Shown here: positions 3,206-10,857 of the stretch, one piece after another | Numbering within the stretch: position 1 is the first letter of the stretch | How the letters are laid out: the number at the start of each line of letters is the position of its first letter | Source of the DNA: Lentilactobacillus kefiri | GTDB lineage: Bacteria > Bacillota > Bacilli > Lactobacillales > Lactobacillaceae | Assembly: GCF_007989105.1 (NCBI RefSeq) | Contig: NZ_BJVK01000008.1 | Span: 1 to 64,000, forward strand | Direction of reading: 5' to 3' | Length of the DNA stretch: 64,000 nt | Position numbers and translations under genes: made by a program | The notes under the pieces: generated by a model | The model's input: the letters and a program-made list of their open reading frames with translations, nothing else | The model's database searches: none | Told to the model about the DNA's origin: nothing

Positions 3206-3238
3206 TACAATGAAAATGTAGCTTAAGAAAATCTTAAG
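3206..3238 (+). promoter_or_regulatory. Extended -10 promoter with CiaR-like direct repeat downstream
   Basis: TGCTACAAT (TACAAT near 3206-3211) is an extended -10 element. CTTAAG at 3222-3227 and CTTAAG at 3233-3238 form a direct repeat with an 11-bp period, matching the other three boxes in this locus. Here the box lies between the putative transcription start and the ribosome site of the CAP gene, which would suit repression. CTTAAG is palindromic, so its orientation is ambiguous. The regulator is inferred, not present in the window. Confidence 0.55.
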
Positions 3239-3267
3239 AATTTCATGTCCATATTGGGGGGATATCA

Positions 3268-4068
3268 ATGAAATCAACAAGTAAATTATTAACAATTCTC
3301 AGCTTGTCGCTTGGCCTGATTGGCGCATCCGCCTTCGGGATCAATGCCCAAGCCAAAACAACCACGGTTAACTATGTATCAACAACCGGAAAAGTATTAA
3401 GAGCACCAATTACTTATACAACCAAATCAACAAAATCAAGTTATTATTACAATCCAAAAGCAAGTTATCCAACCAGCGGAGCCGGATATATCAAAAAGAT
3501 CCCGGGTTACCTGCCACACAAGGTTCCTCAAACTTACTCTGCCAGCAACATGCCAACCTCACTCAACGTGACGTACATAAAAGAGTCAACGCTTGCCAAG
3601 AAAGTCGATAAACAATATCTCAAGCAAATTAATGCTTATCGAAAGACAAAGGGACTCAAGGCGTTCAAACACAATGCATCTCTTAAAGCTAAAACCGTTG
3701 TCCGTTCAAAAGAATTATGGCAAAAGTTGAGCCATGTTCGACCAAACGGCCAATCATACAATTCCAACAATAGTGGTTACGCTGAATGCATGGCAGTTTT
3801 GCCAGCGTACTTCCTACCAACCGGTATCACCACTTACAATTCCGGCCAGGGTGCAATTTTGACATACAATTCCAACGGTTATGTTTCATATAAAAAGACC
3901 GCTAAAACTGCCAGTCATGAGTTATTAACCTGTGATGCGCTTCACCGTGACACCGAATTAAACAACTGGGCAACTTATAGCGAAGTTGCTTTCAGCTTCC
4001 ACGATGATGGATCAGCAAAGATGGCTCAATTATTTGAAATGGCCAACAATCCAAATACTAAAATGTAA
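3268..4068 (+). CDS. Secreted CAP-domain (SCP/PR1-like) protein
   Basis: A 266-residue exported protein. Residues 1-29 are a signal peptide (ends NAQA). Residues about 30-105 form a Tyr/Ser/Thr-rich MucBP-like segment (VNYVSTTGKVL). Residues about 113-266 form a CAP domain: INAYRKTKGLKAF matches the family opening helix, and LSHVRPNGQSY carries the His of the cavity. The ribosome site is the unusual ATTGGGGGGA. CAP proteins of lactobacilli are extracellular and of mostly unknown role. A CiaR-like repeat lies in its 5' untranslated region, and the downstream candidate small RNA is complementary to its ribosome site (with one G-U pair), so post-transcriptional control is plausible. Confidence 0.85.
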   Translation: MKSTSKLLTILSLSLGLIGASAFGINAQAKTTTVNYVSTTGKVLRAPITYTTKSTKSSYYYNPKASYPTSGAGYIKKIPGYLPHKVPQTYSASNMPTSLNVTYIKESTLAKKVDKQYLKQINAYRKTKGLKAFKHNASLKAKTVVRSKELWQKLSHVRPNGQSYNSNNSGYAECMAVLPAYFLPTGITTYNSGQGAILTYNSNGYVSYKKTAKTASHELLTCDALHRDTELNNWATYSEVAFSFHDDGSAKMAQLFEMANNPNTKM

Positions 4069-4078
4069 GAATGAAGGA

Positions 4079-4119
4079 GGTTCGAGCAAAACAATCAGTT
4101 TTGTTCGAACTTTTTTTGT
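4079..4119 (+). terminator. Rho-independent terminator
   Basis: GTTCGAGCAAAAC and GTTTTGTTCGAAC form a long stem (4080-4110) followed by seven T, 11 bases after the CAP gene stop. Confidence 0.9.
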
Positions 4120-4160: not shown

Positions 4161-4319
4161 AAAAAAGGCCCTGCTCGCATACAGGACCTTTTTCAGGGAA
4201 ATTCATATTGAGGGGTATTTCATGAAGCTAAGAAATTGTTGGGGTTTCTTAGTAATTCTTGTTGGGGTAATCTCTTAATCCAACACAGAGCCAAATGCTT
4301 TGTGCCTTCATTTTCGATT
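4161..4319 (-). ncRNA. Candidate csRNA-like small RNA 1 (anti-SD type)
   Basis: A predicted minus-strand RNA of about 160 nt, starting near 4319 below the promoter at 4326-4358 and ending in a strong terminator (arms 4167-4173 and 4182-4193, U-run at 4161-4166). It holds an internal hairpin with arms CTAAGAAA/TTTCTTAG (4228-4235, 4245-4252) and three C-tracts that are exact complements of G-rich Shine-Dalgarno sequences (TTGAGGGG 4208-4215, TTGTTGGGG 4236-4244, TTGTTGGGG 4259-4267 on the plus strand). The unpaired stretch between hairpin and terminator is complementary to a whole initiation region (SD plus ATGAAG). Streptococcal csRNAs have this layout. On the plus strand the same stretch could be read as an 18-codon ORF (MKLRNCWG...). 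Expression is unproven. Confidence 0.6.
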
Positions 4320-4325
4320 GATTTA

Positions 4326-4358
4326 AGAATACTTCATTTAGCTTAAATGGACCTTAAA
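4326..4358 (-). promoter_or_regulatory. CiaR-like box and promoter of small RNA 1
   Basis: Read on the minus strand: TTTAAG-N5-TTTAAG (4358-4353 and 4347-4342), then 10 bp, then TATTCT at 4331-4326. This is a perfect match to the streptococcal CiaR repeat, with the same 11-bp period and 10-bp spacing to the -10 as the boxes at 4863-4879 and 5465-5481. No TTGACA-like -35 is present, consistent with an activator-dependent promoter. Confidence 0.65.
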
Positions 4359-4382
4359 ATTCAAAATTTAGATCATTAAGAA

Positions 4383-4506
4383 CAAAAAGAAAAGTCCTGC
4401 TCGCATACAGGACTTTCCAAGGGAAATTTTATATTTCATATTGAGGGGTATTTCATGAAGTTAAGAATTTTATTTTGTTGGGTAATTCTTAGTAATTATT
4501 TGAGGG
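4383..4506 (-). ncRNA. Candidate csRNA-like small RNA 2 (anti-SD type)
   Basis: A second minus-strand RNA homologous to the first over about 110 nt. The terminator is AAAGTCCTG/CAGGACTTT (4391-4399, 4408-4416), with the same loop ctcgcata as RNA 1. The internal hairpin TAAGAATT/AATTCTTA (4462-4469, 4484-4491) pairs perfectly although its sequence differs from RNA 1, which is compensatory change. Three anti-SD tracts complement TTGAGGGG (4441-4448), TTGTTGGG (4475-4482) and TTGAGGGG (4500-4507). A TATAAT at 4513-4518 could start a transcript of about 124 nt. Alternatively it is the 3' end of a longer RNA from the box at 4863-4879. Plus-strand reading gives a 27-codon ORF with the same MKLR start. 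Confidence 0.55.
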
Positions 4507-4519
4507 GTGAATATTATAT

Positions 4520-4879
4520 TTTTGTGAGATATGAGTGATACCAGGGATTCTCCATCGCATCAGTCCTTTCAATATCTTCGTGAGTTTCAGCGCACGGTCT
4601 TAAATTAACTCGTTGTGATACTTTCGGTTTTAATAGCAGCTCCAAACAACAAACCTCGTATGCCGGTTGGAACTGTGACGCTCATAGTGATACTTGGTTT
4701 TTAACTGAGTCTTCATTAGTTTGTGCAAGTGATCCTTCCTTTCGCATCGTCATTTGTCGTGGAGCTGATTGGGAAATCATATTAGGAGTTTGGTGCAGTT
4801 GTTTGAGTTGTGTTCCGCTCGCCTCCTTTCTTATTTGATTGTCTACAGATTATCGCATCCATCTTAAACGAAGCTTAAA
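4520..4879 (-). promoter_or_regulatory. CiaR-like promoter and leader without a recognisable gene
   Basis: On the minus strand TTTAAG-N5-TTTAAG (4879-4874, 4868-4863) is followed by 10 bp and TAATCT (4852-4847). The start of the predicted transcript closely resembles that of the 5449-5481 promoter (GATAATCTGTA..., then a purine-rich AAGGAGG-like stretch), showing promoter duplication. The following 300 bases encode only tiny frames: 32 codons from an ATG near 4764, an overlapping 26 codons, and 13-23 codons behind AAAGGA near 4570. The last segment resembles the mini-ORF region at 5393-5422. No known gene is recognisable. The transcript would run into the terminator at 4391-4416. Confidence 0.5.
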
Positions 4880-5448: not shown

Positions 5449-5481
5449 AGATTATCGTTGGGGGCTTAATCCAAACTTAAA
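5449..5481 (-). promoter_or_regulatory. CiaR-like box and promoter of the 4903-5337 gene
   Basis: Minus strand: TTTAAG-N5-ATTAAG (5481-5476, 5470-5465), 10 bp, then TAATCT (5454-5449). Period and spacing are identical to the boxes at 4342-4358 and 4863-4879. There is one mismatch in the second half-site. Confidence 0.6.
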
Positions 5482-8799: not shown

Positions 8800-10758
8800 T
8801 TAATATTTACCTTGAATGACCAATTTCTTGTTGGCGGTGACATAGTAGCCATTTGATAATTGATAACGGCTTGTCAGATTATGACCAACCAACTTCTTAA
8901 CTTTCAAATGAGTGCCCTTCTTGTATGACTTGGTTTTACCAGTCAAATTCTTATTCTTGTAAGTGTGGACACCCTTCTTGGAAATAACGGTAATTGTCTT
9001 ATTCTTTGGAATTGATTTGTAGTAAACATTGACGACATATTTCCGGTTGGCAGTGATATAGCCAACTTTGCCGGCAGTCTTCTGATGGTGGTTAACATCC
9101 CGAACTTTATATCTCAAAGCCCCACCGTTTGAACGATCATACCCAATGATGACAAACATTGGCCGGTTTGTTCTAGCTGCTTTGGGATATGTGGCAATTC
9201 GCTGTGACTTCCTAAAGGTCGCATGCTTGTACATATAAAGCTTCTTGGTTGCGTATACCGCTGAACCTTTAACTGCAGCGTAGTTTGGTAAACCTGTGCT
9301 GCCATTCCCATTGGTTGGAGTCGTTGGATTCCAGTTAGGGTTGCTTGGCGTTGGTGTAGGTGTTGGATTTGTCGTCGGATTTACAGTCTTACCGCCATTA
9401 TTGCTTCTTCCTGGAACAGTGACCTGAATCGTCTTACTAATCGTCCGCTTTACAGAATCTGAGTAAACTGCTTCATAAGTGTATGTCACATTATAAACTC
9501 CGGGTGTACTGGTATTCAAAGTACCATCAGCATTGATCCGGCCATTATTAGACGTTACTTTCACATTATCTTTAGTAACCGGAATTTTGGATGTATCAGA
9601 ATTATCTTCCTGTTTAGGATCATAGAGGGTTACATGATCTAGTGGATTCCATTTTGCACCTTGATTAACCGTCGCATTATCAGCAACTAAAACCTTAACG
9701 ACCTGCCAATTAATACCGCCAATTCCATTATTAGCCATAATTTTACGTGCATATTTGAAATAATCAGGATTTGAAATGTCGCTTATTCCACCGCCCAAAC
9801 GTGCAGTGAATGTTTCATAGGTTAACAGATTATTGTAACGCCAGACAGGTGCATAGTCTTTTGTCTGCAACATATCCCAGAATTTTTGTCCATTGTTAGC
9901 GTTCATCTTATCGCCAACCACTCGGTATTCCTTATTCACAAACAATGTTGAGCCATCACTTGTGCCTAATCCGCGATAAAAGTTATCAGTTTCAATATCA
10001 TTGCTGAAATTGAATTCAGGCATCAATGATTGAACGTCCGTAGCTTGTTGGTAATAGCCATCTTTATCTTTATAGGTGACAAGATACTGTCCCTTCATAA
10101 AGTCGGGATACGTTGTGACATCTATCGGCATTCCTATCTGAAAATTGAGCGTTGTCCCATCAAATTGCCAGTTATTTTCTCGAACCGGATAATTTTCATT
10201 AAACTGTGCGTCTTCGCCTTTGACGTATTCCATTGGAACTGAAACGTCAATCGACTGTTGAGGCTTCAAGGTACCATTAATGACAATATTACTATTACCA
10301 TATGGCGTCGTAATATTGAATTGACTTGGAGAATTTGCTCCCGTAATCACAGCAGATTGCGCAGGATCACCAACTGGGAGAAATGGTGCAGAGCCACTGG
10401 TTAAGTCCTTGGGAAATCTCAAAAACTGTGCAACCGATATATCTGCTCCACCAGAAGGATTACTATTTTTCAGATATAAATGTTCATAAAAATATGGATT
10501 GTTTCTTAACGGCCAAGCATCATTGCTAATAATTGTACCTACGGGGGAGCCGCTGAAGTTTGAATTCTCTCCTCCAACAGAAATATACACTGCGTGTTCC
10601 AAACCATTCTGGTACTTAGCTGGCGTAGTGTATCTGGTACCACCGTTATAAAGAATCGAAGCTGCGTGTACACCCCCAGTAAAAGTAAATAGACCTATGA
10701 TTCCAAATGCCATCATTAACAACAGATATTTGATCCGTTTGCGAATACTTTTTGACAT
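8800..10758 (-). CDS. Large secreted surface protein with C-terminal DUF5776-type module
   Basis: A 652-residue exported protein. Three ATG codons follow one another after TTGAGGGGGT; the third gives the best spacing (7 bases). Signal peptide to about residue 32 (GVHA). Residues about 35-385 are an unrecognised beta-rich ectodomain. Residues about 390-465 form an Ig-like segment (VTYTYEAVY). A Pro/Thr/Asn linker (TPTPTPSNPNW) precedes the C-terminal basic module of about 165 residues, highly similar to that of the 26-1825 protein (LPNYAA...YKVRDVNHHQKT...GYITANRKYV). There is no sortase motif. Its ribosome site ATATTGAGGGGGTAT is complementary over 11 contiguous bases, plus three more after a bulge, to both candidate small RNAs at 4161-4506. 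Confidence 0.87.
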   Translation of the reverse strand: MSKSIRKRIKYLLLMMAFGIIGLFTFTGGVHAASILYNGGTRYTTPAKYQNGLEHAVYISVGGENSNFSGSPVGTIISNDAWPLRNNPYFYEHLYLKNSNPSGGADISVAQFLRFPKDLTSGSAPFLPVGDPAQSAVITGANSPSQFNITTPYGNSNIVINGTLKPQQSIDVSVPMEYVKGEDAQFNENYPVRENNWQFDGTTLNFQIGMPIDVTTYPDFMKGQYLVTYKDKDGYYQQATDVQSLMPEFNFSNDIETDNFYRGLGTSDGSTLFVNKEYRVVGDKMNANNGQKFWDMLQTKDYAPVWRYNNLLTYETFTARLGGGISDISNPDYFKYARKIMANNGIGGINWQVVKVLVADNATVNQGAKWNPLDHVTLYDPKQEDNSDTSKIPVTKDNVKVTSNNGRINADGTLNTSTPGVYNVTYTYEAVYSDSVKRTISKTIQVTVPGRSNNGGKTVNPTTNPTPTPTPSNPNWNPTTPTNGNGSTGLPNYAAVKGSAVYATKKLYMYKHATFRKSQRIATYPKAARTNRPMFVIIGYDRSNGGALRYKVRDVNHHQKTAGKVGYITANRKYVVNVYYKSIPKNKTITVISKKGVHTYKNKNLTGKTKSYKKGTHLKVKKLVGHNLTSRYQLSNGYYVTANKKLVIQGKY

Positions 10759-10857
10759 CATCATACCCCCTCAATATAACCATTTTAATTCTGTTTTATT
10801 TACCTCTTAATTATACCAGTGGGCACTCAGCAAACGCTAAATTTATGTCCAAATAAA

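Follow-up and report, generated by a model that had tools for sequence, protein, structure and literature searches.

The stretch of DNA analysed here (the window, 64,000 nucleotides) is contig C8 of the 2.49-Mb genome of Lentilactobacillus kefiri (G000). Near its start lies a plus-strand CAP-like gene (3268-4068), whose product is secreted and has a Pfam match under the cut-off, followed by a terminator that is predicted to shield the minus-strand features beyond it from plus-strand transcription (Table 1). The earlier note had described two homologous minus-strand units of a common design here, and both were recovered: they are 76% identical (E about 1e-17), they share an internal stem, unpaired C-rich stretches and terminators with a common loop, and their 3' ends lie at 4161 (unit 1, here A1) and 4384 (unit 2, here A2), where the note had placed them. 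Upstream of A2 on the same strand are two small open reading frames and the gene of a secreted protein.

Table 1. Features of the locus and of its predicted targets, in order of position
Feature	Position	Strand	Sequence	Remark
Candidate target site	3250..3261	plus	CATATTGGGGGG	5' of CAP-like gene 3268-4068; 12-bp complementarity to A1/A2, one G-U
Terminator of gene 3268-4068	4083..4117	plus		inverted repeat, then T run
Putative csRNA A1 (unit 1)	4161..4319	minus		about 159 nt; homologue in G021 96% identical
A1 intrinsic terminator	4161..4194	minus	loop TATGCGAG	sequence and fold
A1 hairpin with CCCCTC (4210-4215) in loop	4202..4226	minus		presumed SD-pairing site; arm-swap test
A1 internal hairpin	4228..4252	minus	CTAAGAAA/TTTCTTAG	folds in A1, not in distant homologues
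-10 of A1	4326-4331	minus	TATTCT	10-nt spacing from CiaR-type box
CiaR-type box of A1	4342..4358	minus	TTTAAGGTCCATTTAAG	exact TTTAAG-N5-TTTAAG match
Predicted long composite RNA	4384..4840	minus		about 457 nt; small ORFs, csRNA module A2, terminator
Putative csRNA module A2 (unit 2)	4384..4508	minus		C-rich stretches, stem, hairpin, terminator
A2 terminator	4384-4418	minus	loop TATGCGAG	
A2 CCCCTC hairpin	4435-4459	minus		
A2 stem	4462-4491	minus	TAAGAATT/AATTCTTA	pairs
Second mini-ORF, 13 aa	4514..4555	minus		strong SD in front
Small ORF, 28 aa	4630..4716	minus	MKTQLKTKYHYERHSSNRHTRFVVWSCY	in-frame synonymous bias
-10 of long RNA	4847-4852	minus	TAATCT	TTTAAGCTTCGTTTAAG-N10-TAATCT (4879-4847)
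CiaR-type box of long RNA	4863..4879	minus	TTTAAGCTTCGTTTAAG	also conserved in 14 other species
Secreted protein, 144 aa	4903..5337	minus		no assigned family; immediately upstream of long RNA
-10 of secreted-protein gene	5449-5454	minus	TAATCT	TTTAAGTTTGGATTAAG-N10-TAATCT (5481-5449)
CiaR-type box of secreted-protein gene	5465..5481	minus	TTTAAGTTTGGATTAAG	10-nt spacing from -10
Candidate target site	10767..10777	minus	ATATTGAGGGG	5' of surface-protein gene 8800-10764

Streptococcal promoters activated by CiaR carry NTTAAG-N5-TTTAAG with the -10 at 10 nt, and csRNA starts are counted 7 nt past the -10 (PMC3091779). The minus strand 5' of unit 1 reads TTTAAGGTCCATTTAAG-N10-TATTCT (4358-4326), and the same layout of box and -10 is repeated in G021; placing the A1 start 7 nt past the -10 gives about 4319, and its end was taken as the last U of the terminator. 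The claim that the locus makes two separate small RNAs thus held for unit 1, with its own CiaR-type box, and failed for unit 2, which is the 3' part of the predicted 457-nt RNA. A TATAAT immediately 5' of unit 2 was considered as a promoter of its own and rejected; it is not kept as a -10 in relatives. A consensus sigma-70 scan was uninformative for these promoters because it demands a -35 hexamer, which is missing from them. The third box in Table 1 precedes the gene of the secreted protein, and box-driven secreted proteins occupy the equivalent position in other species.

The box, -10, ORF and terminator of the long RNA are jointly conserved in 15 of the 24 Lentilactobacillus species. Over the small ORF's final 12 codons, synonymous and non-synonymous differences stood at 245:474 in frame, versus 99:567 and 108:568 when the two other frames were read, and because of this in-frame bias the ORF is very probably translated. 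Its homologues encode 27-42 aa with a C-terminus of VVWSCY or close to that; no Pfam or NCBIfam model matched the peptide when three homologues were searched. The second mini-ORF keeps its SD and start across homologues and varies in length and sequence. The interval that separates the small ORF from the csRNA module (4514-4620 and homologues) also contains a conserved hairpin, GAGTT...CAG...CTG...AACTC, and the mini-ORF there, with its strong SD, runs from 3 to 20 codons among homologues.

An exact-pattern search found related loci in Lentilactobacillus only (sunkii, parabuchneri, otakiensis, parakefiri, rapi, kisonensis, diolivorans and others); 15 of the 24 species have the A module. A second family of short RNAs, designated csRNA B (about 145-160 nt), was found upstream of a kptA-like gene (RNA 2'-phosphotransferase, an assignment judged by eye) in 12 species, including G000:C7:18100 (L039), G021:C24:9570 and ten others. 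It carries two or three anti-SD motifs (ACTCCTCC, TCTCCTCC and CCCCTC) and a CiaR box at G000:C7:18100; its -10 is TAATAT, compared with TATTCT for A1 and TAATCT for the long RNA. A1, A2 and csRNA B all have C-rich anti-SD motifs, among them CCCCTC, ACCCC or TCTCCTCC. Other csRNA-like RNAs that have a box, C-rich runs and a terminator were seen in the more distant G001, G002, G007 and G014. Rfam gave no match in the 64,000-nt window, and its hits in ten related loci were all sub-threshold and put down to chance. As a separate observation, CRISPR-like repeats (GTATTCCCCAC...GTGGGGGTGATCC or GTGTTCCCCATGCGTATGGGGGTGATCC) start downstream of the RNA, within about 300 nt of its csRNA terminator, in G010, G016 and G004 (L011, L012, L014).

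The A module nearly always lies 3'-terminal in a long RNA with box, small ORF, hairpin and second mini-ORF, and short forms with their own box, such as A1, are the minority (G000, G021, G011 and G019). This arrangement, together with the coding selection on the peptide, would also be expected if A2 were a mere 3' UTR and terminator of a CiaR-controlled peptide mRNA, with A1 its shortened copy and neither acting in trans. We regard this as improbable: unlike the mini-ORF, the C-rich motifs are conserved and also multiplied, with ACCCCTCAATATG in 1 to 3 copies, the module is retained without the peptide in A1 and in the short forms of G021, G011 and G019, and csRNA B has a like design with no peptide seen.

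The difference between the internal stems of the two units had been read as compensatory change under selection for RNA structure. Both stems do pair, yet the change between them is small, with TAAGAA/TTCTTA common to both, one pair turned from A-U to U-A, one pair gained and one lost. The expectation that related loci would keep this pairing was not borne out, as 6 of 13 distinct units fold the stem and the other 7 lack it. Because distant homologues do not keep the stem, the covariation argument needs correction. The neighbouring hairpin TTCAT-(CCCCTC)-ATGAA was better conserved in an arm-swap control, in which 3' arms were exchanged between sequences and the energies compared; this control was used for the A hairpins because their arms misalign in the MAFFT alignment. 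The mean energy of the CCCCUC hairpin was -2.1, versus -1.26 (sd 0.29) with swapped 3' arms, and only 1 of 300 swaps was equally good. Covariation was seen in the csRNA B family elsewhere in the genome. There, 84% of cells were paired, 7 of 12 pairs were changed on both sides, none of 500 shuffles reached the covariation score and slid versions scored far lower, so the predicted structure of csRNA B clearly covaries.

The genome encodes eight OmpR-type regulators. The product of G000:C46:6110-6796 is 57% identical to streptococcal CiaR (243 bits), the next-best match in the genome reaching about 35% (143 bits), and a kinase gene lies 3' of it. Since no CiaR assignment exceeded a curated cut-off when NCBIfam was scanned, orthology was judged from best hits and the recognition helix, which is VVEVYMSNLRKKL as against VVEVYVSKVRKKL in S. 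pneumoniae (streptococcal pattern VVEVYVSK[VI]RKKL) and is found in this regulator alone among the OmpR-type regulators of the genome. The box with its -10 occurred 116 times in the 24 Lentilactobacillus genomes, versus 4 occurrences of the reversed pattern. The CiaR orthologue is present in 23 of these genomes, and the exception, G020 (88% complete), is without any box. Among other Lactobacillales, 19 genomes with a match to this CiaR had 24 boxes versus 1 in the control, and 21 genomes without a match had 1 box in total versus 2 in the control. In genomes of other genera, it is the promoter of ciaR, or that of the gene divergent from ciaR, that carries the box. Streptococcus genomes, recognised by the CiaR helix, served as a positive control, and there the box was found 5' of an HtrA-like membrane protease and of csRNA-like RNAs; htrA is an established CiaR target. 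In two other Lactobacillales families (f3: G046, G053; f9: G172; L267, L277, L278, L279), CiaR boxes are followed by short RNAs that have terminators and C-rich stretches of the type CATACC(C/A)AA...; these are likely to be csRNAs as well. The suggestion that the two units are csRNA-like is thus supported by the exact CiaR boxes, the 10-nt spacing to the -10, the CiaR orthologue and a box enrichment that tracks CiaR, and also by homologues and additional csRNA-like loci throughout the genus.

Boxes were also seen at other kinds of gene. One lies 5' of a VanR-like two-component system (G000:C35:15629, with orthologues in G005, G006, G016 and G022), hinting at a regulatory cascade. Another precedes a conserved protein of 27-37 aa, MNRKRIYYTSGITAAAVV..., with one likely membrane helix and no Pfam or NCBIfam match (G000:C8:77367, L186; also at box loci of G003, G006, G008, G011, G015, G016, G019, G021 and G022). 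A related repeat, CTTAAG-N5-CTTAAG, lies at 3222-3238 on the plus strand, downstream of the TACAAT -10 of the CAP-like gene, where binding of CiaR would repress that gene; the repeat is only partly kept in G021.

The box before the VanR-like system in several species, and the number of OmpR-type regulators in the genome, leave room for the view that the RNAs are genuine SD-blocking sRNAs whose boxes are bound by another regulator of this type, for example a VanR-like or WalR-like one. The CiaR recognition helix is limited to the CiaR orthologue, the boxes disappear from genomes without that orthologue, and the position of the box at the ciaR promoter or at a divergent partner in other genera also points to CiaR itself, making a different regulator decidedly unlikely.

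For both A1 (top five) and A2 (top three), the start regions of genes 3268-4068 and 8800-10764 ranked high among the 60 predicted genes of the window; the duplex energies of A1 with the window genes did not beat those of shuffled sRNAs. More tellingly, just two real genes of the whole 2.49-Mb genome are preceded by the motif ATATTGRGGG-N1-10-ATG, and these are the same two, both surface-type and no more than 7 kb from the RNAs; of the remaining matches, one falls inside a coding sequence and the others are antisense to the RNAs. By our own estimate, (14/2486) squared, which assumes random gene positions, the chance of both motif genes lying so near is about 3e-5. In G022, G021 and G008 the syntenic surface gene has GTTATATT or GTTATATC and then a G run before its start, in a leader that otherwise differs, and the complementarity is imperfect in G021 and G008. 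A lipoprotein gene of G015 carries CATATTGAGGGGTATTCC before its start, 16 nt complementary to the A module of G015 itself. Genes 3268-4068 and 8800-10764 are accordingly predicted to be the best candidate targets. We also considered dltC as a conserved target and rejected it; its SD complementarity is present in G018 only and missing from the starts of four other orthologues. Reading the units instead as small plus-strand genes (SD GAGGGG, ATGAAG) with the minus RNA as an antisense regulator, as in type I toxin-antitoxin systems, draws on the good plus-strand start region ATATTGAGGGG-N6-8-ATGAAG in both units and was rejected as highly implausible, the plus ORFs being unconserved in frame, the ATG missing in G003, gene 3268-4068 terminating ahead of the units, and boxes, coding peptide and terminators all lying on the minus strand.

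We put at about 80% the probability that the small RNAs of this locus depend on CiaR, belong to a CiaRH-type regulon and block translation of surface-type genes. The observations behind this reading are the boxes and their spacing, the CiaR orthologue, the co-occurrence of box and CiaR, the conservation of the RNAs and the coding signal of the peptide. From these we infer transcription of the RNAs, binding of and dependence on CiaR, repression and the identity of the targets. In the model, envelope or acid stress, as the presumed signal, would lead the kinase to phosphorylate the CiaR orthologue, which would bind the TTTAAG-N5-TTTAAG boxes and drive csRNA A1, the composite RNA of peptide and A2, the adjacent secreted protein and csRNA B. 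Ribosome-binding regions would then be bound by the unpaired CCCCUC and ACCC stretches, of which one is displayed in the loop of a small hairpin, and translation would be blocked, so that surface-protein synthesis would be lowered through CCCCUC-SD pairing, and the composite transcript would additionally supply a peptide. More tentatively, and with somewhat less than even confidence, we suggest that a single stress-induced transcript combines the VVWSCY peptide with an SD-blocking csRNA module that regulates the surface genes of its own island, in which case csRNAs would be an ancient trait of the CiaR system throughout the Lactobacillales.

The literature treats both csRNAs and CiaRH as streptococcal and reports that CiaH lacks a homologue in Lactobacillus (Marx et al.; PMC3091779, PMC8186281). 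Our literature search, which covered few subscription-journal papers, found no report of csRNAs in lactobacilli or otherwise outside Streptococcus. The predicted RNAs resemble the streptococcal csRNA/Ccn RNAs in the box NTTAAG-N5-TTTAAG, the -10 at 10 nt, the terminator and the unpaired C-rich anti-SD motifs (PMC3091779, PMC8186281), and also in their several copies per genome and a CiaR with a near-identical recognition helix. The invariant G positions of the csRNA box (PMC3091779) are present at A1 (4342-4358), the long RNA (4863-4879) and csRNA B (G000:C7:18100), and the -10 at 10 nt, CiaR in the genome and C-rich motifs complementary to ribosome-binding sites, which belong to the same published criteria (PMC3091779), were all found. 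These RNAs differ from streptococcal csRNAs in their host, in the location of A2 within a peptide-encoding RNA and in having adjacent surface genes as candidate targets. As csRNAs are defined as intergenic, non-coding and 51-202 nt in size with a terminator within 250 nt (PMC3091779), A1 (159 nt) and csRNA B qualify by sequence as putative csRNAs, whereas the A2 transcript, which encodes a peptide and exceeds every published csRNA in length, is not. LhrC of Listeria monocytogenes offers a further parallel, being a multicopy sRNA family induced by a two-component system whose UCCC motifs, located in loops and single strands, bind the SD of envelope-protein mRNAs; it is a parallel only, with no relation in sequence expected, and LhrC is controlled by LisRK, which according to that paper had no known consensus binding site (PMC4132741).

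The conserved CiaR of Lentilactobacillus, its boxes and the several putative csRNA families, together with box-driven sRNA-like loci in genomes of two more Lactobacillales families, would extend the circuit beyond Streptococcus and make non-pathogenic food bacteria hosts for its study, and the peptide-plus-csRNA transcript and its adjacent candidate targets allow simple, direct tests. SgrS and RNAIII are dual-function bacterial RNAs, single molecules that combine a small ORF with a regulatory part acting by base pairing, and the composite RNA would share this design with them, although the regulators differ and no relation in sequence is expected.
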